Part shown: positions 2,480 to 46,996 of the stretch, piece after piece
Layout of the letters: every line of letters starts with the position of its first letter
Position numbering within the stretch: position 1 is the first letter of the stretch
Assembly (NCBI GenBank): GCA_019426215.1
Contig: CM033403.1
Span: 36,280,754 to 36,344,753 of the forward strand
Direction of reading: 5' to 3'
From: Buddleja alternifolia
Lineage: Eukaryota; Streptophyta; Magnoliopsida; Lamiales; Scrophulariaceae
DNA: 64,000 nucleotides
Position numbers and translations under genes: made by a program
Notes under the pieces: generated by a model
The model's input: only the letters and a program-made list of their open reading frames with translations
Database searches by the model: none
What the model was told of the DNA's origin: nothing

Positions 2480-4687
2480 ATGGCCTTTAACAAGATGCCA
2501 AAGTTGATTGAGTCAAATTATGACTCATGAAAACTTAGAGCATTTGCTTATCTATGTTCTTGTGATAATGAAATGTGTGATGTAATTTCAGATGGCCCCA
2601 TCAAAATCATGAAAGTTGTAACTCGAGCACCTGGAGCGACTGTAGCTACTCCAGATGGTTATGTCGAGAAGCCAAAGTTAGAATGGACGCCAGAAGATCG
2701 GAAGAGAGCTAACTTGGATAATGTTGGGAGAAGCGCTCTATACTCAGCGCTAATAGACAATGACGGATTATTCAACAAAATCAAGTTATGCAAAACATCA
2801 AAAGAAATATGGGATAAATTGGCTACTGTGTGTGAAGGATCAACACAAATGAGAGAAAACAAGCTCTCAATAGCCATGCAAAGATTTGAGCAATTTAAGA
2901 TGATGCCAAATGAGACGCTAGACCAATTGGATACGAGATTCACATAGCTTATTACAGAGTTAGCATCACTGGACAAAGAATTAATCAACAAGGAAATGGT
3001 CACTAAAATATTCAGAAGTCTTCCAAGCAAGTATTTGGTAAAGATTGTCGCCATGAGAGAATCTCAGATATTGGAGAAGTTAACTCCAGAGCATGTATTT
3101 TCGAAGCTAAGAGCTTTTGAGTTTGAATTGGGTGAAGTCAACACATCGACTTTAGCGACTGAATCCGGAGCTCTAATCGCTAACATTAAGAACAAAGGGA
3201 AAACCGTCACCGAGGTGAAAGTGACAGAATCAAGCGAGGATATAGAAATGGCTTTGTTAGTCAAGAAATTTAAGAAATTTCTAAGATATGAAAAGAGAAC
3301 TCCCACTGGACAAACATCATTTCAAACCCCTCCTCCTGCACCAGCGCCTCAATATCAAGCGCCAGTGTATTCTATCTCCCAACCTCAAGCGCCAATTCAA
3401 TATCAAGCGCCTCCGTCACCCAATCAGAACTTCTCAGCGCCATATGTTTCCAAAAGGGTAACAAATGAACAAAAGATGAAAATTAACCTTTGTTACAACT
3501 GCAGGAAACCAGGGCACTTCCAAGTTAATTGCCCATATCCAAATGTGTCTAAGCCTACAAAGCAAGACCAAGCGGATAGAAACCAATTCAGGAGCAACCT
3601 TAGACAACAAGGCTTGCTAGCAGAATCAGAATCACTCTACATACCTGATGAGGACTTGGAATCATCGGATGAAAGTAGTGATGATGAGCCATCAAGCGAC
3701 TCAGCGTTCATTTGTCTCATGGTGAGAGATGATGAAGCGTCTGATGACTCGCTATCTGAGGTAACCACTGATTTATCACATCCTCTTTCTTATGATGAAC
3801 TACTTAACAAAGTAAAAGAATATTATAAGGATTTGTCAAGATGCCGCCCAGTTATATCAAAATCACTTTGATATCATTTTAGCACTCAAAAGTGATAACA
3901 TGACGCTCAAGGCAGAGTTGCAAGTTCAACAACAATTTATTGAAAAGAATCAATCGCTTGAAAGTGAAATTACTCAATTAAAAAGTGATATTGATATAAT
4001 AGTCAAGAGAGAAGTTGAAGTATCGCTACACTTGCCAAATCAGAGCAGATTATCCCATCATTATCAAATACATCAAGAATGCTAGATAATGTGACTGAAG
4101 TAACCAGACTATTTGGTGAAAAGACCGGTTTAGGTTGTGATAAATTTGGTCATAAATCTAAAGCGTCTAAGGTTATGACAACCAACAAAGAAAAAGGTGT
4201 AGTCTTTGTTGAAGAGAGGTCAAACAGACAAACGATGAATGAACCAAAAGATATTGGTACGAGGTCAAATGAAAAAGTCAACACTGATTCAGGCAAAGGA
4301 AAGACCAAAGTGAATGATTCACAGAAGAAAGTATATCCAAATGCTCAAAGGGCCAAGGAGAAACCTTTTACAAGTAAATCAAACGCTAAGTGTCTAACAC
4401 CAAAAGTGAATCCTAAGCCAGTGCCAAGGAGATACCAACGTCAATATCCACAAAGAACTAGATCATATTATCAATACTATGATAACTGTGATTATGATAA
4501 TGATTATTACTATAATCAAGGATATTACTATACACCTAAAAACCACACACAACACAAACCAAAACCCAAAAAAGCCAATCTTCCCGTAATGAAGACAAAG
4601 CAAATATGGGTTCCGAAAATTCTAATTCAGACTAACGTTACTAACAAGGAAGGACCCAAAACAAAATGGGTACCTAAAAGGAATTAG
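2480..4687 (+). pseudogene. gag: Copia gag polyprotein, broken
   Basis: Capsid and nucleocapsid protein that packages element RNA. The start ATG at 2480 opens with a typical Copia gag N terminus. The zinc knuckle C-Y-N-C-x4-H-x4-C is at 3491-3532, followed by an acidic, serine-rich segment and a coiled-coil-like stretch at about 3840-4020. A basic, Tyr/Asn-rich C-terminal region ends in a W-V-P-K repeat at about 4600-4680. Breaks: TGA at 2528-2530 where tryptophan is expected, TAG at 2945-2947, a frameshift near 3838-3842 and another near 4019-4022. Frames on either side of each break carry coherent gag-like sequence, so these are single lesions in one former ORF. It lies 115 bases after the 5' LTR and runs toward the protease. 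Confidence 0.88.
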
Positions 4688-4700
4688 AACTACCCTTTGA

Positions 4701-7700
4701 ATGCAGGTACCTAGAGCCAACACCGATACCTCAATTTGGTACATAGATAGTGGGTCATCAAGACATATGACTGGCTCAAAGGATCTTCTGATCAACTATT
4801 ATGCCACCAATGGTCCTCAAGTTATATTCGATGATAACTCTAAAGGTAAAACCAAAGGTATAGGTATCATGCATAGGGAGAACATCATGATAAGTGATGT
4901 ATACTACGTTGAGGGTCTTAAACATAATCTCTTAAGCATAAGTCAATTTTGTGATAAAGGCTTTGAAGTAAAATTTTCTAGTGACTATTGCTATATTAAT
5001 GACGCTAAGACTGGATCTACTAAATTGAAAGAAAAAAGAACAAACAATGTGATTTAGTAGATTGGGGTTCAACATTAGACAACAACCCTACATGTTTTGT
5101 AGCTAAGAATCAAAATGAATTGGGTTGGCTGTGGCATAGAAAAATGAATCATCTTAACTTTAAGGCAATTTCTCAATTAATATTGCTAAATCTTGTAGAG
5201 GGATTACCTAAAGGTTCCTTGAATAAAGATCGTTTATGTGATGCATGTCAAATGGGTAAACAAGTTAAATCATCTTTGAAGAAGAAACCTCATCTATCTA
5301 CATCTAGAATACTTGAATTATTACATTTAGATTGTTGGTCCCAAGTGGCATACGAAAGGGTCTAGAAGGAGGGGGGGTTGAATAGACCCTGAAGTCTTTT
5401 TCGACTTCAAAAAGTTTCGTATTAAAAATGGTTTTGGACGCTTGAGATGTAAACGTTTGACTGAGCGTTTACTTTGAAATATAGACGCTTAGGTTAAGCG
5501 TCTGATAAAGACTGTTTTTAGAAAGTTAACTTAGACTTCAAGATTTGAATACTTTAACCAAGTAGGTTTAAGCGTTCAGTTCTTTAATCAGTGTTAGCAC
5601 AGTGGAATGATTTTGTAGTCTTCTTTTAAAAGCTTTAGCGTCACACGAAGTTTCTTAGTTGCTTAGCGTTCGATTGTGTTTTACTTAATCAATTTATGCA
5701 ATGATATGATATGAAAGAATTGACTGAAAAGTAAATAACACAATATTTGTAAGGTTCGTTGGGTGATGTAATCCCAACTACAACCTTCTTCTCCTTGAAC
5801 ACTTGGAGGCAATCCACTAAAGTGATTCTCAAAGAATCACACAGAATCTTCTACACAATAGGGAGAGATAGATGTCGATGACTTGAGCTCCTTGATCACA
5901 CAGATTTCTGCGCCAAATCACTTCAATCTCCTTGCTTCTTTCACCCAGAAATGATGCAAGTATCCAACTTCGACTTCACACAGATCGCGAGGCTTGGATA
6001 GGTTTTTCTAAAACGGTTTGTTTGATTTTGATGAAGTTCAAACAACTTGGAAATATCTCAGTAGGAAAGTGGTTTCTTCGAAAAGAATGTTTGAGATATT
6101 TGTTGACTGTCTCAGGAATTGAAGAAAAGCAAAGGGAATGTTTTCTTGAATATTCTGGCTTTTCTGAGAGTTTAAGGAATGAGACTTCAAAGCAACAGCA
6201 ATTTGACTTGAAGATTGATTGTTTTTTTTTTGCTTGTTGTTGAAGTCCTATTTATAGGCATTCTTGGAGAAAGTGTCCGTTTGACACATGCACAGGCGCG
6301 TGTCTCTCACTTCCGCGAGTGAACAACTTTGGTCCTTTTTTCTGAAAATCTCCTGCACAAAAGTTGGTACTGCAGTCTGAGATAGTTGACAGTCCAATAG
6401 GGTGGCTTCTCCGTACGTTTGAAAGTGCTTATCACATTTAATGCTCTTATCAGCATTTAATGCATTTAAATTAAATACCCGTTGGTACTTAATGCTCTGA
6501 GAATATTTGCATTAAACTCCTTCTGGACTTAGAAATAAATTCAGGTGAAATTACTTCCGTCCTATAAGGTAACACTTGATGTAGCTGGTCAATTGGACGC
6601 TTGGAGACTTTATCTTCTTTCAGAAATCAGGCGCTTGAGTCTTCGAACTTTACCACTGATAAACTCACTCAGAAATTATCAGACGCTCAGCCTAAGACTA
6701 CTTAGCCTAACAATCTAAAATAAAATAAAACAAAGCCTAATAAGCCTATTACAAAACTAACGCTTCAAAGCTTATACAAATTTTCTACTAAAAACAAACT
6801 TACATATTTTGGGGTCTAACACAAAGTCCTAATTGCCATCATCAAAACATCTAACATGAAATTCCTAACATAGATTTGTTTGGTCCTATTCAAATCATGA
6901 GCGTTAGTGGTAAAAAATATTCACTAGTAATAGTTGATGATTTCTCATGATATATATGGATAGAATTTCTATCATCCAAAGATGAAACTAGTGTCAAGCT
7001 CACAGCGCTAATTCGTCAATTACAAAATTCAAAAGATTTAAAGGTGACAAGAATTAGAAACGATAGGGGAACTGAATTCACTAACCATGTTGTTGAGAAG
7101 TTTTGTAAAGATTTTGGAATAGTTCATGAGTATTCAGCGCCTAGAACACCTCTACAAAATGGAGTTGCCGAGCGACAGAACAGAATGCTTAAAGAAGCCG
7201 CTAGGACTATGTTAGCCGAGTCTAAGCTACCTCAAAGGTTCTGGGCCGAAGCTATCAGTACCGCTTGCTACACTCAGAACCGGTGTATGATCAACAAGCA
7301 ACATGAAAAGACTCCATATGAGTTATGGAAGGGACGTAAGCCTAATATTTCATATTTTCATGTATTTGGTTCAAAATGCTTCATTCATAACAATGGGTCC
7401 CAAAATCTAAAGACATTTGATCCTATGGCGGATGAAGGAGTCTTTCTAGGCTATGCCAAAAATGGAAAGAGTTTTCGAATCCTACATAAGATCAAATCAA
7501 AGGTTGAAGAATCCATTCATGTTGTGTTTGATGATGCTAACCAAGAACCGAGCAAGGTTAATGCTAATGATGTAGGAATTGAAGATCTTGCTCAACAAAC
7601 ATCACAAATCCATCGTTGTGATAATAGTGATATTGATGAAGATGATGAGATCATTGTGTCCAATCCTAAGACTACTCGTGAGGTTATCAATGATGATAAG

Positions 7701-9497
7701 ATTGTAAGAAACGCTGATGATCATGAAGAGAATGTTCATCAAGAGCAAATTAGAACTGTGAATAGTGAAACGCCTACGCAAGATGATAGTCAAGCGCCTG
7801 AGCAAATTAATCAAGCGTCTGATCAATCACTCAATCCGTTCCAACCAGACCGTAAATGGCTTAGAGATCATCCACCAGAATTAGTAATTGGAGATATTGG
7901 AGCACCTGTCAAGACTAGAGCCGCTACAATAAATGAGGCTATGTTTGCAAGCTTCTTATCTCAAATGGAACCAAAGAAAGTGGATGAGGCGCTTAATGAT
8001 TCAAGTTGGGTAGAAGCCATGCAAGAAGAGCTTAACCAATTTGAGCGTAGTAAGGTTTGGATGCTAGTACCAAGACCAACTCACCAAGGAGTCATTGGAA
8101 CTAGATGGGTCTTCAGGAACAAGATGGACGAAGATGGTATTGTTGTAAGAAACAAAGTCAGACTAGTCGCTCAAGGATATTGCCAAGAAGAAGGGATTGA
8201 TTTTGATGAGACATATGCTCTAGTAGCCTGTCTTGAAGCAATTCGAATATTCCTAGCGTTTGCCACATTCAACAAATTCACTGTGTATCAAATGGACGTG
8301 AAGAGTGCATTTCTAAATGGTAAACTCCAAGAAGAAGTATATGTGGAGCAACCACCAGGATTCATCAACAACCATGGCAAAAGTATGGTCTACAAATTGG
8401 ATAAGGCACTCTATGGCCTCAAACAAGCACCAAGAGCATGGTATGACACTCTCTCTATCTTCTTTATAGGTAAAGACTTTTCAAAAGGCAGCGTTGATAC
8501 AACGTTATTTAAAATTACCCATAATGAAGATATTCTCTTAGTCCAAATCTATGTTGATGATATTATATTTGGATCTACTAATAAGCGTCTATGTGAGAAA
8601 TTTTCAAGAATGATGCAAGATCAATTTGAAATGAGCATGATGGGTGAATTAACCTTCTTCCTAGGATTACAAGTTAAACAACACCCTAATGACATATTTA
8701 TAAACCAAACTAAATATACTAGAGATATGATTAAGAAATTTGGTATGGAAAATGCTTCATCTTCAAAAATTCCAATGAGCCAAACGTTTAAGCCAGATAA
8801 AAATGAAAGTGGGAAGAAAGTTGATATTACTAATTATAGAGGTATCATTGGATCACTTCTTTATCTTACAGCTAGTAGACCTGATATTATTGTCTCGGTA
8901 TGCATGTGTGCACAATTTCAAGCTGATCCTAGAGAATCACACTTAATTGCTGCCAAGAAGATCCTTAAGTACCTAAAAGGCACACAAAATGTGGGCTTAT
9001 GGTATCCAAGGGATTCTCCTTTTGAACTAATTGGTTACTCAGATGCAGATTTTGCAGGTTGCAAAATAGATAGAAAAAGTACTAGTGGTACATGTCAATT
9101 TCTAGGTGAAAGACTAATTTCGTAGCATAGTAAGAAACAACAATCCAGAGCGACTTCTACCACTGAAGCTGGGTATGTAGCCGCTGGAAGCTGTTGTGCA
9201 CAAATCCTTTGGATGAGACAACAACTTAGAGATTATGGTATAATCTTAGGTCCAACACCAATCCATTGTGATAACCAAAGCGCTTTAGCTATGACTCAAA
9301 ATCCTGTTCTCCACTCTAGAACTAAACACATTGACGTCCGCTATCATTTTCTACGTGACCATGTTCAAAAGAAGGATATCTCCATGCACTTCATTGGTAC
9401 AGAAAAACAATTGGCAGATATCTTCACCAAAGCGCTCAACGAACAACGATTTCTCACTTTGAGAAGTGAACTAGGTATGATCGACTTAAATGCTTAA
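4701..9497 (+). pseudogene. pol: Copia pol: protease, integrase, reverse transcriptase, RNase H; interrupted by a solo LTR
   Basis: Domains in order. Protease has the active-site D-S-G-S-S-R-H-M-T-G at about 4746. The integrase zinc-binding H-x-H/C-x-x-C is at 5132-5255, and the catalytic core begins at about 5300, is interrupted at 5333-6870, and resumes at 6871. It holds the D of R-G-T-E-F at about 7065 and the E of the G-V-A-E-R motif at about 7165. Reverse transcriptase spans about 7990-8760, with Y-V-D-D-I-I-F-G at about 8550. RNase H spans about 9030-9497, with S-D-A-D-F and H-C-D-N-Q. Lesions: a frameshift in the A-rich stretch near 5030-5040, a TGA near 6948 where arginine is usual in D-D-F-S-R, and TAG at 9123-9125 where tryptophan is usual. 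The 693-codon stretch 7044-9125 is still open, so the decay is moderate. The integrase-before-RT order defines Copia. Confidence 0.95.
5333..6870 (-). mobile_element. Solo LTR of a related Copia element, inserted in reverse in integrase
   Basis: 1538 bp that begins (plus strand) TGTTGGTCCC and ends CCTAACA, the reverse complement of the host element's LTR ends. It is flanked by a perfect 5-bp target duplication TAGAT (5328-5332 and 6871-6875). Removing it restores the integrase reading frame across the junction. A TATA-like box and AAGCGTC-type words are present in reverse. It is about 350 bp shorter than the host LTRs and clearly diverged, so it comes from another subfamily and not from the host itself. 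A full element must have inserted and lost its interior by LTR-LTR recombination. Confidence 0.92.
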
Positions 9498-10587: not shown

Positions 10588-13500
10588 ATGGCACCCAAGA
10601 AATCCTCTACTGCTGCTACTAAAAACATCATCAAGGTCACTGAAGGCCTTGTGGTGGATTGGAAGTTCTTATACGAAAATACTGACATCAATCTATCGGA
10701 GATGATGGACTCTGTTGCTAAGGCTGGGCTTCAGAAATTCCTGACTAAGTATTCTTACTCATTCCCTGGCGAAGTTGAATTCTTCTGGAAGAATGCTAAG
10801 CTATCAGAAGACAAGACCTCTATTTCTTGTCGATTTCCCGATTCCAAGAAAAGTCTAAGAAATTCATTCTCTCTGCCGACACCATTGCCAAGAACTTCGA
10901 ACTGCCCAATCAGGGAGAAGCTCTGGACACCATCACTGGTGAGCAGATTGAAGAAATCTGGACCAGAATAAGTGTATATGAAGGTGTTCCATACAAGCCC
11001 TATTTTGAAAAGAAGGATATCGTCAACCGATATCGTGTATTGGCCGATTTCTGCAGTAAAAATATTGAATGCAGAGTGGGCACCTTTAACAAGGTAAACC
11101 CAACCCAATTTCAGATGATGACTGCTATACTACTCAACATCCAAATCAACTGGAGTGCTTATGTTTTTAGCATATTCAAAAACAGTCTGAGCGCCCCAAA
11201 CAAGCCTTATGGCTTAGCTCTCAGTGACTTGCTCTTCAGATCAGAATGTACGAATTCTGCTGGGATTACTGTGGCCAAACATAAATTCTATGGGAAGAGA
11301 ATTATCACAAATCTCTTCATCCTACGTAACCCCGAAGGTGCTGCTAAACCTCTCGCTGAGCGCCAAAATATTCATGAAGCGTCAGATGAGAAGGCTGAGC
11401 GTCCTGTTCAAGAGGAAACCGTGAAGCGTCCGATAACTAAAAGGAAGAGGGCTCCCAAAAAGCCCAAGGCTCAACCTATTCCATCTCCTCTCAAGGATGA
11501 TGTAGAAACTGATGAAGAAGAGGAAGATAATCTTCCACTCATAAAAAGAAAGAAACTTGAAAAGATCATCAAAAAGATCAACTTTGATGCCAAATCGACT
11601 GCTGCCCGTCCTAAAGCGTCCATACTAATTGAAGGGGTTAATATCAAGAAAATATTCAAGAAGCGTCGAGGATCAGGCAAGCATCAAGCTGCTTCTACTC
11701 CTACAGAGCCTGAGACTATTGAGCCAAGCGCTCAAGTAACAATTGCCGTTGAGACTAGTTCTCAGGGTAAGTTTATTTCTTCCCACAACATTTCTTTACC
11801 TACTTATGTAGAAGATCCTGCTCTTATTGAGGATAGTCCCTTTATTACAGCTCTTCCTCTAGCTGTTGTTGAAGCACCCATTGATATCCATCTGGATGTT
11901 GATATGACTGCGGTCGTGGCCATCGCTCAGGATGTTGCCACAGAAGCTGCTGCAATTGAAATCGAAGAACCTACTTTCCAAGAGGTTTACACATCAACTC
12001 GTATTCTGGCTATGACAGAGGCACGCTCAGAAAGTCAGAGCGTCGCTGTAGAAGTTACAAAGCTACAACACTTCTTCAAATTGGATCCCCTGAAAACAAT
12101 TGATCAATCAGTCAACTACATGCCTCCAGTTCTTGAAGAAGATTTCTTTCCTGCTGGTTACAATGAAGAAAATACCACAAATGCAGAGCATGACATAGCC
12201 AAGCTGATTAAGTTTGATCAGACCATCCGAGACACTATCTTCAACTCAGAGCTCACAGCAATTGACAAAGCGTACTATATTTTTGTTCAACTAGGCAAAA
12301 CTCCTCGTCAGATACCTGCTGCCATTGCCATCCAGGAAGCACGAATAGGTGTTAGCACTCCAAGATCTGATGTAGACTTGGCCTACTATCGAGATTATGG
12401 GCACAGCAAACCAACTGGTTTTGCTCTAAGAGACTACACCATTCGAGTGTATGATCCTCTCCGCCCAACCTTTCTCAATCCATCAGAAGAAGTTTTAAAC
12501 GGAGAAGGCTACACACATTTTCCACTTGTAGCAAACAGCCCTAACAACATAAATTCCGTCAATCCACTTCGGCTGTGGAAAAATAAAGGGATTCATGCAG
12601 GTGAGCGTCTAGTCTCTCTCACAGATATGATACAGACTGAAGCCGACACACTCTTTGATAGCGTCTGGAATGCCAGCTATCAGACTGATAGATATCGCTT
12701 CGAGTCAATCAGAGATATCCATCTTGAAGGCATTCGAGCTATAATCAATGCAGATCCTGATTACTGCATGACTGAAGTAAATTGGATTGAAGCATACATT
12801 GGCAACCGATGCAAGTTTGAAGAGCTAGTCAGCGCTCCTCACCTTTTTGGCCTAGGCATGAATGACAAGAAGCGTCATGTTGCAAATTACTGTCTGCAGA
12901 AGCGTCAACAACGTGTTGGACCAGTGCTCAAGTTGCCATCTGAGCATCAACAGATAGAGTAGTTCCTACGCCAAGTGTTGAACAAACTTGCCAAAACTCC
13001 TCTACACTTTAACGCTCAAGCGTCAACTAGTGGCAGCTTCCCAGACTCTTGCTTAAATAACTCTCACAGCCACTATGACGACAATCTCAATCTAATGGTC
13101 AAGATAATGTCACATGTTGCTCTATTCGACAGAATCTTTACCTCAAATCTGCGTAAATGGAATGGGTCAAGGATTTGCTCCTTCAACGGATTCTCACTGC
13201 TCCCCTCCATCAGAAGGGAAGTACTCAACCATTATGAGCTTGTCCTCTCTCTACTGGAAAGGAACCAAGAGCTTGCTCAATCCATATATCCGTATTTGGA
13301 AAAATATTATAGCGCTTATGTTCCTGCCTCTCGAAGACCTCAAAATCTTCCAACAGATAGGTTGATCGGATTTTCACGACAATACTGCTCAGACGCTCTA
13401 TTCTCAATCTGTCAAGCGCCTTTCAGAATATTTCCAAATCATGTGCTGGATATCTTAGGTCCCATGCACATAAGGGCCATAGACAGTCTTTTGCGCATAT

Positions 13501-33837: not shown

Positions 33838-34110
33838 CCAATCACACATCACACGAATTAACAAGAACAATCGGTTCTTGCCCCAAAGCCCAAAGCCAAA
33901 GCCTCCCAATATTATTAATCGTTAAAAAACTCCAAAAACCTACTTAGAGTATTTATACATGTCCAACTAATAATGATAAAACGAGAATAAAAATAAATCG
34001 ACTAAACGCTACCCGATGCTTTCTTTTTTCACATGTAAACGCCCCAAGGTCCAGTTGACCGTGCCTCACCCATCGGTTTCTCCTCTTGATCTTTGGCTCG
34101 CTCCACATCA
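33836..34110 (-). repeat. 3' LTR of the chromovirus, truncated at its outer end
   Basis: Aligns to 37896-38213 from ATCCAATCACAC to CGCTCCACATCA with internal deletions. The first ~33 bases of the LTR on the left side are missing, and the flank is the Gypsy fragment's RT. Confidence 0.8.
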
Positions 34111-34112
34111 AC

Positions 34113-37100
34113 TCACTCTCCCTCAGAAACAACCTTGTCCTCAAGGCGAAAGTCATGAAATTGAGCACGCAATTTTTCCACTTCAACCCAAGTAAATTTG
34201 TCGTTAGGCTTCCCCTTCCAACTCATAAGAACCTCCCGAATCTTCACCTGCCCATCACTGTGAACTCGCTATTTCAGCACTTTCTCAGGCTCGAGCAGCC
34301 CCGTTAAACAATTTCCAAACTCTCCGGCAATTGAGTTTCCACCGGATGATCTCCTTTAGCCCGTTTTATGTGGAACACTGGATGTATGCGGCTCGATGTT
34401 GGCAATTTCAATTCATATGCTACTTGACCGACTCTGCGAACTACCTCAATGGGACCATATAACTTCACAGCAGCTTTGAGTATCCCCTGCCGACATAGAA
34501 GTCTGCCGGTAAGGTCTCACTTTAAGAAAGATGAACTCGCCTACATCAAATTCAACTTCCCTACGATGCTTGTTAGCGTACTGCACCATCAGCTTCGGAG
34601 CCTTCAATAAATTCGACTTCAATTGTTGCAAAATCACATCCCTCGCCTGAAGTACCCCAGCAACCGATTCAACTCGGCATTCCTCCGAAAAGTATCACTG
34701 AAGAGATAGCAGAGGTCTGCCATATACAACCTCGAATGGTGTAATCTTCGCCGCGGTTTGGAGAGATGTATTGTACTAATATTATGCCCAAGATAACCAC
34801 CCGACCCATTTACGCTGTTGTTCAGACGAAAAACACCTCAAATACATTTCGAGCACCCTATTTATAATCTCGGTTTGGCCATCTGTCTCGGGATAATATG
34901 TTGTGCTATAATTCAAGTTAGTCCTCTGCATACTAAATAACTCATGCCAAAACGAACTCATAAAAAGTGGGTCGGCGATCACTGACAATGGAAAGAGGAA
35001 TACCATGCAAACAAACTATCTCGTGTAAGAAATTTTTGGCCACGGAATGAGCGGTTATGGGGGCCTTCAAAGCTATAAAATGGCCATATTTTGACAATCG
35101 ATCAACTACCACAAAAATACAAGAGCATCCCAACGATGTCGGAAGTCCGGTAATAAAATCCATTGAAATATCCTCCCAAATCATGTCCGAAATAGGTAAC
35201 AATTGGAGCAATCCCGCTGATGATTGAGAATCATACTTAGACTTTTGACAAACTAGACAATTCGCCACATACTCTTTTACTTTGCGAAACATCCCCTTCC
35301 AATATACACTAGCATTTCAACGGCGGTAAGTCCTTAAAACCCCTACATGACCCCTTCCGGGGTATCATGAAATTCGTATAAAAGTCGTGAAACCTAAGCC
35401 GAGTTCTTGGGTAACACCAATCAGTGCTTATAAAACCGTTGTCCGTCGATCACAGAAAACCCGGTTTAGAGGCTTTATCCCACTGCACCATTTCGACAAT
35501 GCCTCTGACATAAGCATCTCGCTGCTGCTCGTCAATTACATCACTCAAAGTCGTCCAAATCGGCCACTGACAGCCGTGCACACCCCTCGGGCTCAACCCG
35601 ACGCGACAACGAATCAACTGCTTTGTTGGACGGAACCGTCTTATACTAAATGTCAAAATCATAACCGAGTAGTTTCGCCACCCAATTTTGTTGTGCCAGT
35701 GTAACAATGCGCTGATTAAGTAAATGTTTATGGCTATGGCGGTTGGTTTTCACCACAAACCTTCGGCCCACTAGATACGGGCGCCAATGTTGCACGGCGA
35801 GCACCAATCCCATCAACTCTCTTTCGTAGCTGACTATGACAACAAACTCTCCAGCAAAGCCTTGCTAAAATATGCGAAAGGCCTCTTCTCTTGCATCAAA
35901 ACCGCTCCAATCCCTGTTCCCGACTCGTCACTCGATAACAAAAGGTTTCGTGAAATCCGGCATTGCCAATACTGGAGCCGAAGTCAAAGCCCCCTTCAAC
36001 GCCTGGAATGCGACGTCGGCTTCAATTGACCACTCAAACCGGGTTGCTACTTCTTTTTTTAATAACCGAGTTAAAATCCTAATCCTTAACAAATCGCCGA
36101 TAATAGCCTGTTAATCCCAAAAATCCTCGAACTGCTTTAATGGACTTGGGCGTGGGCCAGTCCACTATTGCCGCCACCTTCGTCGGATCCATAGACACCC
36201 CCAAGGCCAAATTGATGTGGCCCAAGTGTTCGACCTGGCTGCACCAAAAATCATACTTCTTCCTATTCGCCTTAAATTGGTTGGTTCGCAAAATGTCCAT
36301 CACCATAGAAAGGTGTCTTTTATGATCGGAACCTGAACGACTATAAATCAAAATATCGTCAAAAAAGACAAACAAACTTACGTAATAAGGGCCGGAAAAG
36401 GTCGTTCATAACGGATTGGAAAGTTGTCAGAGCATTCGAAAATCCAAAAGGCATGACGAGGAACTTGTAATGGCCGCTATGGGTACGAAACGCCGTTTTA
36501 GGAACATCAATTGGGCTCACGCGAATCTGATGGTACCCAGATCGTAAGTCAATCTTCAAAATACCGTCGCCGCTGACATCTCGTCCAACATTTCCTGTAT
36601 CACCTGGATCGGATATTTATGCGGTACCGTCACTTTATTCAGCTCCCGATAGTCCACACAAACCCTCCAGCTCCCATCCTTCTTTTTCACTAGTAATACC
36701 GGGCTTGAAAAAGGACTCAAGCTCGGCTATATGATCCCAGCTGCCAACATATTCTTGACCAAACGCTCAATTTCATCCTTCTGCAAATGGCCATAATGGT
36801 AAGGCCGAACAGAAACTGGCTCGGCTCCCTCCACTAACTCAATCCTGTGGTCTGCTGATCGATGTGGCAGTAACCCCTCCGGCTCCCTGAACACATCCGA
36901 AAAGCTATCCAGCACTTAGCGGGCTGATTTCTGCGGCTACCCTTGTGACTGCCCCACACTCGTGTGACCTGACCTCCACGGCAAATAGTTCTTTTTCTGG
37001 AGTATGTAAAAAGGCCTTTAATGTTACCTCTGAACGACAAGATGACCGATCGCCTGTGAGATGGATTTGTTTCCCGCCATAAGCAAATCCCATAGTCATT

Positions 37101-37821
37101 TTATTCCAATTCACCTTGACATCTCCTAAAGTGGACAACCAGGCGATGCCAAAAATTAGGTTAACTCCCCCTAATGGAAAAACATAGCAATCAGTGCGCA
37201 CCAAAAATTAAGTTCTGACAAACTTCTGCAGATTCGGTTCGTCGCTCGTTTCCCAATTGCACACCAAACCGGCTTGTTTGCACCACTCTTAACCCAAGTT
37301 GAGCTACCAATTTCTCAGATATATAATTGTGGCTTGCACCACTATCCACTAAATTCCTCAATCGCAATGTACGTGGACCCAAAATTCCCGTCACCTAACA
37401 CAAAGGGCTGACATGTCGGATTACTCCCATTCTGTCGTGTCCAACTGCTCCTCGGGCTCCTTATCCATCTCAATTTCCTCTAACTCCAAAACGGGCTCCT
37501 CATCATCCGCAGCCAATAGAAATCTCAAGTGTTTCATAGGACAATCGTGCATTGGATGGTAAGAGGCCTTACACCCGATTCTGCCGCTGCCTGGTGCTGC
37601 TGCAATGGTACCGCGACGCCTGTCGTGGCCGCCGTCGCGGTACTATTGGCACTAGATTGCGCCGCCGTCAACAAATTCATTCCCTTCAGCAATTCGGCCA
37701 TCTGACTTTGCAACGCGTTGATGCTACCTTTCATCTACACTTGTTCCTTCGTGAACATGCTCATCGCCTTCTCCAGCGCCTGGAAGAGTCCGTCGTTCAC
37801 ACCGGTACGAGTTTCAACCAT
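34113..37821 (-). pseudogene. Chromovirus gag-pol, many stops and frameshifts
   Basis: The ATG at 37821 starts a short gag N terminus (stop after about 28 codons); the capsid and zinc-knuckle part is missing. Protease V-D-S-G-A-S-H lies at about 37340, and the G-G-V-N-L-I-F-G-I-A-W-L-S linker at about 37160. RT runs from about 36910 with [21 protein letters not shown] and F-F-D-D-I-L-I-Y-S (usual Y-V-D-D or F-D-D form). RNase H lies at about 36100-35640. Integrase has its zinc-finger end C-L-V-C-Q-K-S-K at about 35245, catalytic D at D-F-I-T-G-L-P, and the E-containing stretch T-D-G-Q-T-E-I at about 34880. The chromodomain (K-I-R-E-V-L-M-S-W-K-G-K-P) is at about 34240-34130, stop at 34115-34113. 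The chromodomain would target insertion to heterochromatin. Not functional. Confidence 0.88.
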
Positions 37822-37843
37822 CATAATTTCGCGGGGTGGGATA

Positions 37844-37859
37844 TGCCAGGTCGGAACCA
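37844..37859 (-). other. Chromovirus primer binding site, tRNA-Tyr-like
   Basis: On the minus strand TGGTTCCGACCTGGCA lies three bases inside the 5' LTR. It is one inserted base away from TGGTCCGACCTGCC, the primer site of the PDS5-carrying element at 41825-41838. The latter fits the 3' end that I recall for plant tRNA-Tyr. Confidence 0.55.
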
Positions 37860-37862
37860 AAT

Positions 37863-38213
37863 TGATGGGTGATAATTTAAACACAAAGCACACACAAATC
37901 CAATCACACGAATTAACAAGAACAATCGGTTCTTACCCCAAAGCAAACGCTTCCCAATATTATTAATCGATAAAAAACTCCAAAAACCCTACTTAGAGTA
38001 TTTATACATCTCCAAATATCCACTTACCATAATAAGACTCCTAACAAAATAAATAACTGAATTACTCAACTAACAATGATATAATAATAAAACGAGAATA
38101 AGAACTGGTTCCACCCGCTGCTTTCTTTCTTCGCACGTAAATGCGCCAAGGTCCAGTCGACCGTGCCTCATCCATCGGTTCCTCCCTCTTGCTCGTTGAC
38201 TCGCTCCACATCA
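37863..38213 (-). repeat. 5' LTR of the chromovirus (351 bp)
   Basis: Complete copy: on the minus strand TGATGTGGAGCGAG...CACCCATCA. A TATA-like TATAAATACTC lies near 38008. The right flank TGAAC has no matching partner on the left because the other LTR is truncated. Confidence 0.85.
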
Positions 38214-39481: not shown

Positions 39482-39700
39482 GTAATTTTGTATATTCACG
39501 TTATATGTTTAAGTTGAGTAGCTCAAATTGTTGTTTAGTCTCTGTTTTAATGTGGTGTGTCACTAGAATCTGCCTCCGCATGAGAGCTAATATTATGAGC
39601 ATTGTGTTAGGCAAGTAAACTTTCTTTAGTGGTAGTTGTGCTGCGTTCTTGATGGCTAGAACGACAGTGGTTTACAAAGTAAAAACTTCTGCCTAGTGGT

Positions 39701-39919
39701 ATGAGTATGTCTATGGTGTCTAGTAGTGTGTCGCCGGGTGGTGGTGAGACAGTGAAGAAGAAGAGGGGTCGGCCTAGGAAATATGGCCCTGATGGAGCTA
39801 ATATGTCTGGGACTGTCTCCCATGTCTGGCTCCAAGCCTAACTCCGGGGCGATTAGCTCGGGGGAAAGAGCGAAGAAGGCCGCCTGGGAGTGGGTGGAAA
39901 CAAAAACTTTCTTCTCTTG
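39701..39919 (+). pseudogene. AHL-type AT-hook gene fragment (exon 1 plus start of intron 1)
   Basis: AHL proteins bind the minor groove of AT-rich DNA through AT hooks and a PPC domain. Here an ATG-led segment gives K-K-K-R-G-R-P-R-K-Y-G-P-D-G, the first AT hook with its typical flank. After a frameshift near 39825 and another near 39875 come S-G-A-I-S-S-G-E and R-R-P-P-G-S-G-W-K-Q, the second hook, ending at a good donor (G|GTAAGT). The intron-like sequence continues to 39969 and then, beyond the LTR element, from 42160. The PPC domain is absent. A genomic fragment, since it keeps an intron. Confidence 0.78.
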
Positions 39920-39986
39920 GTAAGTTTGTAGTTGGAGTTTAATTACGATCTTGGGTTTGGTAATGATAGGCTAAGGTGGACCAAAT

Positions 39987-40303
39987 TGATAGAACTTATT
40001 TTTTATAAACACGATAAATCAACAAGAATAAATCTTGCCCCTACAAACCGAAGTTTGTCTCAAGCTTAAAGCTCGATTCCACAATAAAATTTTGAATGAA
40101 TAAATTAACCCTAAAGACTCCTATTTATACTACTACTCAAACCCTAAAGAAAACTTGTCACCAAAGAAAACTTGCCACCAAAGAAACCTACTAACAATCA
40201 AACTCTACTAATTAATTAACTCAAACATAAAATAAAATTAAACAGCCTTAATAACACATCTAATCAGCTCCTTCTTCTTTTGCTCATAAATCCGCTTCAC
40301 AAC
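39987..40303 (-). repeat. Extra (distal) LTR copy of the PDS5-carrying element
   Basis: Nearly identical to the other two LTRs. It ends CACAAC then TT before the next LTR, and its inner side carries GGTGGACCAAAT, a primer-site stub. Confidence 0.9.
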
Positions 40304-40305
40304 TT

Positions 40306-40622
40306 TGATATAACTTATTTTTTATAAAAACGATAAATCAACAAGAATAAATCTTGCCCCTACAAACCGAAGTTTGTCCCAAACTTGAAGCTCGATTCCA
40401 CAATAAAATTCTGAATGAATAAAATTAACCCTAAAAACTCCTATTTATACTACTACTCAAACCCTAAATAAAACTTGCCACCAAAGAAAACTTGCCACCA
40501 TAGAAATACTAACAATCAGACTCTACTGATTAATTACCTCAAACATAAAATAAAATTAAACAGCCTTAATAACACGTCTAATCAGCTCCTTCTTCTTTTG
40601 CTCATAAATCCACTTCACAACA
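40306..40622 (-). repeat. 3' LTR of the PDS5-carrying element
   Basis: Minus-strand TGTTGTGAAGTGG...GTTATATCA. Contains a TATA-like ATAAATAGGAG near 40437-40450. The last codons and stop of the PDS5-like ORF fall inside it (40556-40622). Confidence 0.92.
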
Positions 40623-41797
40623 ATTCCACCCCCCTTAAAAACAGCCTTGTCCCCAAGGCTGAACTGAGGAAATTGTTGCCTATGCTTGTAAGGCCTTCCC
40701 GAACAAGGATCATCGAATCGCACCGTGTATGGCACCTGAGCTTCTTCATGCTCCGGTTTAGCTTCCAATTTCACCGGTTCTTGACCACTCAAATCATTAG
40801 ACTTGGTTTTGGATATTGCTCCGGGATCAAGCTTATGGTAAAAATTTGCTTTCTTTGGATAATTTGCATCACTCATAGTTTCTTTAGTCTCAATATGATT
40901 GATACCATTACTCTCAGTTGACTTTGGTGATACCACAGCGAGATCATTTTCTTGAATATTGGTCTTTTCGATACCACCCTTATCCACCGATTGGTCTGCT
41001 AAGATGTTTTCATTACTACATCTGATTTTACCACTGTTCTCTCGGCACAAGGAAGCTACAACCTCAATATAATCATCCACAGAAGCATCTAAAGTTTTTA
41101 CTGCTTGTGTTAAACAAGGTCTAAGCTTGTCTGCACAGTTTTGAATAACTCTCTCCGCCAACTTCTTTGCAATTGGCATGGCAGCCTCATTGCTCCTTTT
41201 CAAGGTAGCTAAGATTGGATTAAGTACATCTGAGGATATATCTTCACTTTCTTCTAATACAAGAGTCATAATTGTCTCCATAGATGCAAAGATGCCTTCT
41301 GTATGATAAACTCCAATAGCTTGAATAAAGTGTTGGAACATCTCAATAATCATCTGGTCACATTCTAAATCCAACATGATGACACAAGACCTGACTTTGG
41401 CCATGGTTATGGTGACCCTTTTTCCATGAGATCTGCTGGATGTGTTCGACAAATCCTGGAAGGATGATACAATCAACTGGAATACATCCTTCAACTTTTC
41501 ATCATCATATGGAGCATCCGGTGCAGTAATTCTGGTTATCTTACTGATGCAAGAAGCTACGCCTACTCTTACATCATTGTCTGAATGCTTCACCAGCTCT
41601 TCTGCAACCAGTGCCTTCATTAGTGGAGAAATAGCAGTTAGCATGGATTTGGCAGGTGACTGCTCCACTTTTGATAAGAGTTCCTCAATTAGATCGAGAA
41701 GAGGCAGGAGTTCATCGATAGAAGAAGGAGGCTGAAGAAGCCTGTTCCCAGCTGCGTTAAGACGTTCTTCCCGTTCTTTATGGGAAAGTCGCGTCAT
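40556..41797 (-). CDS. PDS5-like cohesin regulator, N-terminal HEAT region, captured in an LTR element
   Basis: PDS5 binds the cohesin ring and controls sister-chromatid cohesion and its release. The first ~270 residues follow plant PDS5: G-N-R-L-L-Q-P-P-S-S-I-D-E-L-L-P-L-L, A-S-C-I-S-K-I-T-R-I-T-A-P-D-A-P-Y-D-D, V-R-S-C-V-I-M-L-D-L-E-C-D and S-M-E-T-I-M-T-L-V-L-E-E-S-E. These are helical HEAT-type repeats. A polar, Lys/Ser/Glu-rich segment follows (about 270-370), possibly from later PDS5 exons, then a short chromovirus C-terminal tail (F-S-L-G-D-K-A-V-F-K-G-G-G). 413 codons without a stop and without introns, although plant PDS5 genes have many, so it derives from mRNA. The start chosen is the ATG at 41797; the frame is open back to the primer site at 41839. 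Full PDS5 is far longer, and this lacks most of the HEAT solenoid. Expression would come from the LTR. A small in-frame deletion is apparent before the V-R-S-C motif. Confidence 0.85.
   Translation of the reverse strand: MTRLSHKEREERLNAAGNRLLQPPSSIDELLPLLDLIEELLSKVEQSPAKSMLTAISPLMKALVAEELVKHSDNDVRVGVASCISKITRITAPDAPYDDEKLKDVFQLIVSSFQDLSNTSSRSHGKRVTITMAKVRSCVIMLDLECDQMIIEMFQHFIQAIGVYHTEGIFASMETIMTLVLEESEDISSDVLNPILATLKRSNEAAMPIAKKLAERVIQNCADKLRPCLTQAVKTLDASVDDYIEVVASLCRENSGKIRCSNENILADQSVDKGGIEKTNIQENDLAVVSPKSTESNGINHIETKETMSDANYPKKANFYHKLDPGAISKTKSNDLSGQEPVKLEAKPEHEEAQVPYTVRFDDPCSGRPYKHRQQFPQFSLGDKAVFKGGGIVVKWIYEQKKKELIRRVIKAV
40623..40640 (-). other. Polypurine tract of the PDS5-carrying element
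   Basis: On the minus strand AAGGGGGGTGGAATT directly precedes the 3' LTR; primes plus-strand synthesis. Its presence means the passenger ORF crosses a functional retroviral-type signal. Confidence 0.75.
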
Positions 41798-41824
41798 TAA
41801 TATCTTGAATTCACTCTTAGATCT

Positions 41825-41838
41825 GGCAGGTCGGACCA
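41825..41838 (-). other. Primer binding site, tRNA-Tyr-like
   Basis: Minus-strand TGGTCCGACCTGCC, three bases inside the 5' LTR. It complements the 3' end GGCAGGTCGGACCA that I recall for plant tRNA-Tyr. The match to tRNA-Tyr is from memory and should be checked. Confidence 0.6.
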
Positions 41839-41841
41839 AAT

Positions 41842-42154
41842 TGATAGAACTTAATTTTAAGAAAAACGATAAATCAACAAGAATAAATCTTGCCCCTACA
41901 AACCGAAGTTTGTCCCCAGCTTAAAGCTCGATTCCACAATAAAATTCTGAATGAATAAAATTAACCCTAAAGACTCCTATTTATACTCAAACCCTAAAGA
42001 AAACTTGTCACCAAAGAAAACTTGCCACCAAAGAAACCTACTAACAATCAGACTCTAGTAATTAATTAACTCAAACATAAAATAAAATTAAACAGTCTTA
42101 ATAACACATCTAATCAGCTCCTTCTTCTTTTGCTCATAAATTCGCTTCACAACA
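41842..42154 (-). repeat. 5' LTR of the PDS5-carrying element
   Basis: 313 bp, minus-strand TGTTGTGAAGCG...AGTTCTATCA, followed outward by the target repeat GCTAA. Drives the PDS5-like ORF if active. Confidence 0.92.
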
Positions 42155-42164
42155 GCTAAGGTGG

Positions 42165-43339: not shown

Positions 43340-43468
43340 GTTCTTTCTGTTCTTGGACTGCTTGAAGATGATGTCGACCCCACGGTATCTGTAATGAAGG
43401 TTGAAAATCCATTGGAATCATATGCTGATATAGGTGGGTTGGATGCCCAGATTCAGGAGATCAATGAG
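43340..43468 (+). pseudogene. Single exon of 26S proteasome ATPase RPT2 (regulatory subunit 4)
   Basis: 129 bases (43 codons) between TTGTTGTAG and GTGCTAG. The peptide follows RPT2 just before its AAA domain: [19 protein letters not shown], then [19 protein letters not shown]2 is an ATPase of the proteasome base that unfolds substrates. This copy lacks about one codon in the conserved K-x-P-L-E-S part and has several changes; no AAA module follows, and reading past the donor meets a stop after four codons. A captured or relic exon with intron flanks, not a working gene. Confidence 0.82.
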
Positions 43469-43737
43469 GTGCTAGTTTGAGAAAGCAGATTAAGTAGGAT
43501 CAGAAAGCATTCGGTTGCTTCAGGAGTTTTGTTTTTATTGTACATATTGGTATATGCAATTTGTATACCTATCACATTTTTCTTTATTTCTGAATAAATT
43601 TAGTTACTTAAAATTGGGTGGTGTCATTTTTTTTTTATTTAGATATATAATTTTGCATTTTTTAGTGTAATTTTTGTTGAGCTAAAAGATAAATATTTTC
43701 CTGGGTTAAATTGTAAGAAATTTTAAATGCATGAGAT

Positions 43738-46005: not shown

Positions 46006-46996
46006 TTATGGGTACCATGGCGTCAATTGTTCGGGCAGTTCTAGGGTAGGTAAAGGCGTATACCAAGTAGCAAAGCGTAACTCTTTAAACCCATGAGAAC
46101 TGATATTGGTGTAATCACTCTCAAATGAATGGTATTTCCGAGTATTCAACGAGTAAAACACACCTTTATCGCCGTGAAACATTCGGAAATAAATCTTGTT
46201 TGCCATGCTTTTTTTAGGAGCGGTCTCTGCAAAAGTCGCGGAATGACTCACAAATAACATCTTATCACCTAAATCTTCCACCAATTCCCACTTCATATCA
46301 GGTTCTAATAGCCTAAATACATTGACTTTTCCTTCTTCATGTTCGACAAACACGACAAAAATCATTTTTTTCCCATGAATCTTAAATAAGAAGTGTTGTT
46401 TAATTACGCAGGGAGCCCTAGGTGGCGAGAGACACTTGGTGTAGACCATCCAACTTCGTTGAGAGAAATGTCCATTGATATCAAACGTACCAATATTCCC
46501 ATTCATATCCAAACAATATATGAATCCACGATGCAAAACTGGGGTGCAAGAGGATACTGGAAAGGGAAACTTGTTGCTGCCGTAGCAGTAGCTCCTCCAT
46601 TTATCCTCTCCCTGCTTAAGCATGCCAATTGGCAGATTTGTGGATTCTAGGTGGTCCGGCAATCCCAAAAATGAAGCATTGTGGGGAAGTTGGCGGGTGA
46701 AAAAAACTGATTGTTGTGTCGCCATCAGAAGGATCAAAGAAAAATATAGAATAATCATCTCGAGACATGAGCAACCATCCGTATTTAGAGCAGCGTATTT
46801 CTGCATTGCAAAACTTGGGATATTCCTTGTAAAAAACGTAATTAGAATTAGATTGAACGAATTTCCATATCCGCGTGTTCCTCCGATAAAACATCAGCCA
46901 AGGAGAGTTTGGCACAACTGCACTCCACGATTTGCATACTAGGCCAAAAGTTTTCCTATCTTTAGGAAAGAGCTTTGACACTACCAAAGTCAGAAG
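46006..46996 (-). pseudogene. F-box protein gene (DUF295/SKIP23-like), main part; split by an LTR element
   Basis: F-box proteins bring substrates to SCF ubiquitin ligases by binding SKP1. The N-terminal F-box reads, across the insertion, as D-L-P-E-E-L-L plus T-L-V-V-S-K-L, followed by K-T-F-G-L-V-C-K-S-W. A C-terminal region of the DUF295/SKIP23 sort includes R-G-F-I-Y-C-L-D-M-N-G-N-I-G. The stop is at 46008-46006. Two lesions: the 2.6 kb LTR element at 46997-49602 cuts the F-box, and a one-base indel in the A-run (T-run on this strand) at 46700-46706 shifts the frame. Otherwise about 330 codons are clean, so inactivation is recent, or the homopolymer shift is an assembly error. Confidence 0.8.

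Follow-up and report, generated by a model that had tools for sequence, protein, structure and literature searches.

What is a long, uninterrupted reading frame doing inside a small long terminal repeat (LTR) retrotransposon? The question is raised by a 64,000-nucleotide stretch of the Buddleja alternifolia genome (contig CM033403.1, positions 36,280,754 to 36,344,753; hereafter, the window), in which positions 39980–42154 of the minus strand are occupied by a 2.2-kb Ty3/chromovirus-like LTR element carrying an open reading frame (ORF) related to the cohesin regulator PDS5. The element is very probably a non-autonomous member of the Ty3/chromovirus type in which nearly all of gag-pol was replaced by the 5′ part of a PDS5C mRNA; it would have spread in trans, and the present copy is most likely now decaying.

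On the minus strand, the element consists of an LTR, ATT, a primer-site-like stretch, a leader, the ORF, a purine tract, a second LTR, two bases, a third LTR, and ATTTGGT, in this order (Table 1). Every part listed in a first-pass annotation of the sequence (LTR, primer site, 413-codon ORF, purine tract, and LTR) is present on this strand, and the ORF nearly fills the interior, as had been stated, occupying 1175 of the 1218 bp between the LTRs (96%). The LTRs are in direct orientation, start with TG, and end with CA, except that the outer left LTR lacks the first T at the LTR–LTR junction. The final 21 codons of the ORF and its stop codon are encoded within the LTR. The primer-site-like sequence TGGTCCGACCT (41828–41838) presumably fits the 3′ end of a plant tRNA-Tyr, and an Rfam scan of the window gave 0 matches at the gathering threshold. 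Only PDS5 exceeded the Pfam cut-off in the ORF; because gag, protease, reverse transcriptase, and integrase domains were not detected in it, the element is regarded as a non-autonomous Ty3/chromovirus-like LTR retrotransposon.

The proposal that the N-terminal part of the ORF is a PDS5 HEAT region, for which a protein search had been set as the test, is borne out: the ORF significantly matches the Pfam PDS5 profile (PF20168, E=9.9e-51, profile positions 1–205), over the same profile span as the host PDS5C protein, and PDS5 chains in PDB (best E 4e-18, others weaker). The other two minus-strand frames across this stretch contain 29 and 40 stops, which, together with the Pfam match, indicates that the open frame is no chance event. 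An AlphaFold2 model contains a confident HEAT domain (residues 1–255) with a dip at residues 131–150, followed by a disordered remainder, and in a Foldseek search with this model the only PDB matches at E <0.001 were four PDS5 chains, including a fold match to human PDS5B. Pfam detected no Tudor domain in the ORF; in the host protein, a Tudor match at residues 610–651 scores 23.4 bits against a cut-off of 27.2. The captured fragment thus comprises the HEAT part and some of the linker, without the Tudor part.

Protein searches were limited to the best 120 of 245 matches (proteins of about 235–747 aa) and, in a later search that scored the 7985 candidates sharing most words, to the best 120 of 823 matches (about 408–1298 aa), so that short or broken copies were missed by these size windows and the word prefilter. 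Among the matches listed, three are B. alternifolia proteins: the product of the host PDS5C gene (P0132, Bualt10G0140900, chr10, 857 aa), a sibling copy of the captured piece (P0002, Bualt03G0221600, chr3, 278 aa), and a second sibling located inside a METTL13-like protein (P0160, Bualt09G0016200, chr9, 1094 aa). Maximum-likelihood analysis of 23 rows groups the window ORF with P0002 and P0160 (support 100/100), with host P0132 as their sister (100/100); inside this group, the pairing of P0002 with P0160 is not firm (94/74). On these sequence relationships, the donor is identified as PDS5C of the Buddleja lineage, with Bualt10G0140900 as the putative parental gene. Against P0132, 28 residue differences are common to the three copies (for nine of these, a residue is present in just one sibling), and the PDS5 parts of all three stop at EEAQ or a few codons off, a position that in P0160 is a gene-model exon border. 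Past EEAQ, P0002 continues with VQYTMR, the window copy with VPYTVR, and the host with VPYNSEVR. The leader of the window copy translates as SEFKIL, and P0160 has SEFEIL before its PDS5 start (shared SEF-IL). Of the aligned rows, only the window copy has lost two residues (LE) after residue 130. More than one copy, as anticipated in the first-pass annotation, is indicated by P0002 and P0160, both known as proteins only; with siblings on chr3 and chr9, the captured piece appears to be multi-copy (at least three copies) rather than a one-off capture.

The ORF is unbroken across ∼355 host codons, and the Arabidopsis PDS5C orthologue has at least seven exons (PMC8184781). The earlier suggestion that a PDS5 mRNA was copied into a chromovirus-type element stands as regards the capture and the retained primer site, tail, and purine tract, and is supported indirectly, by the uninterrupted ORF and the multi-exon orthologue, as regards a spliced-mRNA source. 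The chimera was probably built by template switches between element RNA and spliced PDS5C mRNA during reverse transcription, with the element keeping its primer site, approximately the last 27 codons of its polyprotein, its purine tract, and its LTRs. The enzymes of a relative would have been supplied in trans, and copies would have spread to at least three loci (the window, chr3, and chr9). In the 161 nt from 20 nt below the TATA box of the 5′ LTR to the ORF start, there is no ATG, a condition found in 2.9% of 2000 mononucleotide shuffles; given the TATA box and the lack of an upstream ATG, translation of an LTR transcript would begin at the PDS5 start. Such an RNA, with the PDS5 AUG first, would encode a HEAT protein without Tudor.

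A broken Ty3 element with degenerate LTRs is located at 33900–38200 on the same (minus) strand, and reverse transcriptase and integrase pieces were identified in it by Pfam. This relic lies ∼2 kb from the captured element. The LTR starts of the two are similar, with a score of 9; of 5000 pieces drawn at random from the window, among which the element's own LTRs can occur, 12 scored as high. The primer-site junction reads ATCAATTTGGTTCCGACCTGG in the relic (ATCAATTTGG at 37857–37866) and ATCAATTTGGTCCGACCTGCC in the captured element. The relic ends with LRAQFHDFRLEDKVVSEGE near 34145, which is identical to the tail of the captured element at 9 of 19 positions, a short comparison (QFHDFRLEDK versus QFPQFSLGDK). 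No chromodomain was found in the ORF by Pfam, and a short polyprotein-end-like tail alone remains, which we take to be of the type that follows the chromodomain in chromovirus polyproteins. The captured element is likely to be a relative of the relic.

The first-pass annotation did not remark on the third LTR, an extra copy that abuts the middle LTR with 2 bp between them. The whole structure is enclosed by a 10-bp repeat, GCTAAGGTGG, likewise unremarked there, which occurs exactly twice in the window and at least twice in none of 100 shuffles. Kimura two-parameter distances (K80) are 0.039 between the outer left and 5′ LTRs, 0.049 between the outer left and middle LTRs, and 0.063 between the 5′ and middle LTRs, the outer LTRs being the closest pair. 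A single flanking repeat and outer LTRs that are the closest pair are described as the marks of a single integration of a complex element (PMC1950507), and both argue, weakly, for three LTRs that arrived as one integrated unit. Such a tandem order would result if transcription had passed all the way around a circle with two LTRs. At the substitution rate of 1.3e-8 used in PMC5664825, the K80 of 0.039 suggests an age of ∼1.5 Myr, at which time the window copy would have integrated as a three-LTR unit. Next to the left LTR lies ACCAAAT (ATTTGGT on the minus strand), a 7-nt sequence also present inside the element directly after the other outer LTR; the left end thus retains ATTTGGT(CC), the sequence 3′ of the 5′ LTR within the element. 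In one reading, a primer-site copy may still have been attached to the DNA 3′ end at the time of joining, but a 5-bp duplication (GCTAA) with 12 extra nt fits almost as well.

Post-insertion recombination between neighbouring elements could also have generated the three-LTR form. Complex elements usually arise by recombination (PMC1950507), and the LTR distances are near star-like, with 8, 4, and 11 unique changes per LTR; on the other hand, a single repeat encloses all three LTRs, the outer pair is the closest, and the adjoining LTRs are separated by 2 bp with no second interior. We therefore regard recombination as a serious but rather unlikely origin.

Several observations weigh against the main reading, a chromovirus-type capture that integrated as a three-LTR unit. 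With so few unique changes per LTR, the closeness of the outer pair is weak and no firm difference among the LTRs can be claimed. LTR elements are recognized by a target-site duplication of 4–6 bp flush with the LTR ends, but the present repeat measures 10 bp, and 7 additional nt separate it from the LTR on one side; the typical length in plants is 5 bp (93.4% of LTR elements, against 6.2% with 4 bp and 0.4% with 6 bp; PMC6317226). P0002, P0160, and P0132 were compared as proteins only, and the LTR setting of the siblings is presumed. Lastly, the putative chromovirus origin of the short tail depends mainly on comparison with a single relic.

Whether the captured frame has been maintained by selection bears on the alternative that the element-borne PDS5 is functional, now or for a long time in the past, as a truncated, LTR-expressed HEAT protein selected for the element or the host. 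A random substitution in the ORF creates a stop in 3.1% of cases, and in neutral simulations at LTR-like rates (seven rate settings) the ORF stayed open in just 1–18% of runs; yet it is open, and its HEAT domain is predicted to fold, with pLDDT >80 in 23 of the 25 ten-residue blocks of residues 1–250. As to the contrast drawn earlier between this unbroken frame and stop-ridden element proteins around it, the Ty3 relic (33.9–38.2 kb) fits, but a 724-codon copia pol ORF and a 720-codon ORF elsewhere in the window do not. Conservation was assessed at columns that are conserved across 14 further hosts (majority rule), in several tests that are uncorrected. Because the host end branch is only 0.006, differences between the copies and P0132 were placed on the stem of the copies, where 3 of the 28 changes fall at conserved columns against 31% expected (P=0.013), although this stem may cover time spent as a host paralogue. 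Against maintained function stand the terminal changes at such columns (window copy, 2/12, P=0.24; P0160, 3/8; P0002, 2/11; pooled, 7/31, P=0.22). Under a stricter filter, two of 10 window-private changes are at conserved columns, and the shared changes include 4 (of 28) at columns conserved in 15 hosts. Pooled terminal changes are proportionally fewer in HEAT than in linker cells (18/581 versus 13/205, P=0.037), but by pair the difference is significant for the window copy and P0160 (P=0.013) and not for the window copy and P0002 (P=0.18) or P0160 and P0002 (P=0.40). The LE deletion of the window copy is located where model confidence falls to 66 and 73 (residues 131–150), and the gene models of P0002 and P0160 skip parts and may conceal broken frames. 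These results give a hint of constraint before the copies split, with little since, and suggest that selection on the ORF since insertion has been weak at most, or absent. Maintained function thus appears distinctly unlikely, and the window copy is most likely now decaying near-neutrally.

Although LINE-type retroposition is reported in dicots (PMC4838847), two further origins can be put aside as extremely improbable, namely a LINE-type PDS5 retropseudogene that happened to acquire LTRs on both sides later and a PDS5C paralogue of which a segment was duplicated here: the purine tract adjoins the middle LTR and the primer site the 5′ LTR, one direct repeat encloses all, the ORF continues in frame into a tail of retroelement type, other loci contain this piece with an almost identical end, and the PDS5 piece ends within the coding region and hence lacks an mRNA 3′ end.

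The sibling on chr9 differs in its setting. The PDS5 piece (residues 140–469) interrupts the middle of P0160, which is otherwise a METTL13-like methyltransferase. PDB 2pxx aligns with residues 38–137 and then, weakly (i-E 0.0017), with residues 470–538, which are consecutive in the chain (6–100 and 103–179), and PDB 5wcj (METTL13) aligns with residues 849–1059. The insert begins with SEFEILM and finishes with EEAQQ, and the matching borders in the window, AAG/AGTGAATTC and CAG/GTGCCATAC, resemble a splice acceptor and a splice donor. The window cassette between these borders has a length divisible by three (1080 nt), and the chr9 copy is therefore probably intronic in the methyltransferase gene, with the annotation using it as an exon in the gene model. 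P0160 may thus represent an exonization of a retrotransposon-borne host fragment; provided that the gene model is right, an unrelated gene has taken up the stolen piece as a spliced exon.

We take AT4G31880 to be PDS5C, which fits the description in PMC11519323. The nature of the donor bears on what the cargo could do. The Arabidopsis orthologue of the PDS5C type is RDM15, a factor in RNA-directed DNA methylation (RdDM) (PMC8184781); PDS5C recognizes H3K4me1 (PMC11519323), and loss of PDS5C/E de-represses gene-proximal transposons, in a talk reported in PMC12859917. Since the donor is of the short HEAT+Tudor PDS5C type with an RdDM factor as its orthologue, the dominant or dosage effect on cohesion raised in the first-pass annotation would not be the first expected. 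We consider it highly unlikely, although worth stating, that an LTR-driven, Tudor-less PDS5C/RDM15 fragment or its small RNAs weakens host RdDM and that the splice-ready cassette seeds new exons in host genes, the chr9 methyltransferase among them. If true, a retrotransposon would have turned a captured piece of the host silencing machinery into an anti-silencing factor (dominant-negative or a gene-silencing decoy). As the Arabidopsis orthologue of the cargo helps to silence transposons, the locus offers a direct test of whether elements steal silencing machinery.

Table 1. Features of the PDS5C-bearing element and its flanking repeat (positions in the window)
Feature	Position	Strand	Remark
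Direct repeat GCTAAGGTGG, right copy, element 5′ side (target-site duplication)	42155–42164	.	Adjoins LTR end TGTTGTGAAG
5′ LTR (L5), TGTTGTG...TATCA, 313 bp	41842–42154	minus	94.4%/91.9% blastn identity to the other two LTRs
TATA box TATAAATA in 5′ LTR	41978–41985	minus	
Primer-binding-site-like TGGTCCGACCT	41828–41838	minus	Next to 5′ LTR
18-nt leader AGTGAATTC...TTA, between splice-acceptor-like AAG and PDS5 ATG	41798–41815	minus	
Chimeric ORF, 413 codons, span including stop; ATG 41797	40556–41797	minus	PDS5C N-terminal part, chromovirus-like tail, and LTR-encoded end
Part derived from PDS5C, at most 360 codons: HEAT (aa 1–255) plus disordered linker	40718–41797	minus	End within VPYTVR unsure
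Splice-donor-like CAG/GTG inside PDS5C-derived part	40736/40735	minus	
Chromovirus-like C-terminal tail FDDPCSGRPYKHRQQFPQFSLGDKAVF, in frame	40637–40717	minus	
Polypurine tract AAGGGGGGTGGAAT	40623–40636	minus	Adjoins middle LTR
Middle LTR (Lmid), 317 bp	40306–40622	minus	Next to purine tract
LTR–LTR junction, 2 nt (AA)	40304–40305	minus	
Outer left LTR (Lleft), in tandem with Lmid, 317 bp, TG start without its T	39987–40303	minus	
ATTTGGT after outer left LTR, primer-site remnant	39980–39986	minus	
Direct repeat GCTAAGGTGG, left copy (target-site duplication)	39970–39979	.	

The flanks of the element hold scattered gene fragments. An AT-hook coding fragment, KKKRGRPRKYGPDGA (39683–39835, plus strand), is frame-shifted further on and ends shortly left of the element; it is AHL-like, as we assume, and its Pfam AT_hook score of 16.3 bits is below the cut-off of 17.4. 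A plus-strand fragment at 43340–43474 without a Pfam match is taken to resemble an exon of the 26S proteasome subunit RPT2. Further features of the window are a KIB1-4 ORF (46009–46893), six of whose nine matches are from Buddleja, the best at 74% over 89%, which together with the PDS5 tree places the window by protein kinship in Buddleja or a near relative; a plus-strand copia element (2948–9125) with a gag piece and an open 724-codon pol ORF (6951–9122, RVT_2 E 9e-72); and an open 720-codon frame (10800–12962, plus strand) without a Pfam match at E 0.01.

The literature searches listed no match describing PDS5 capture by an LTR element, which is no proof of absence, and no similar anti-silencing capture was among the literature matches listed; a Cannabis paper that combines PDS5 and retrotransposon wording is unrelated. 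The earlier remark that no such case had been described therefore holds for PDS5 among these matches, but host-gene capture in LTR elements lacking gag-pol is well described (PMC5664825, PMC3726574, PMC4717578). In pepper, ∼72% of retroduplicated NLRs are located in LTR elements without gag or pol coding potential (PMC5664825), and the present element resembles these in the probable copying of a spliced host gene, in appearing multi-copy, and in steps presumably supplied in trans, but it has three LTRs, and its cargo is not an NLR gene but an N-terminal PDS5C fragment to which a polyprotein-like tail is joined. Like maize Bs1, it is an LTR element with captured host sequence and a chimeric ORF; unlike Bs1, which carries pieces of three genes, it has one gene filling nearly the whole interior (PMC13317346). 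Terminal-repeat retrotransposons in miniature (TRIMs) are likewise small, carry intronless gene pieces (as this element probably does), mostly occur in at least two copies, and include arrays of at least three LTRs, but these arrays have interiors between the LTRs, whereas two LTRs abut here, and gene-bearing TRIMs are 1.17–1.45 kb long (PMC4717578), against 2.2 kb for this element, which has LTRs of 313–317 bp; TRIMs are defined by very short LTRs and a very short element. LTR-captured genes number 672 and 1,343 in rice and sorghum and multiply with the element, as the cargo probably does here (PMC3726574); the excerpted account contains no PDS5 case. With PDS5C/RDM15 itself, the ORF shares the N-terminal ARM/HEAT domain, and it differs in lacking the C-terminal H3K4me1-reading Tudor domain and in ending with retroelement-like residues (PMC8184781, PMC11519323). 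If the ORF is merely decaying, it is one more of many LTR-captured plant genes. The type of capture is thus already known and its PDS5C cargo is unusual, and the element illustrates clearly, on a small scale, how a piece of one host gene, also found at further loci, has taken the place of almost all of gag-pol.

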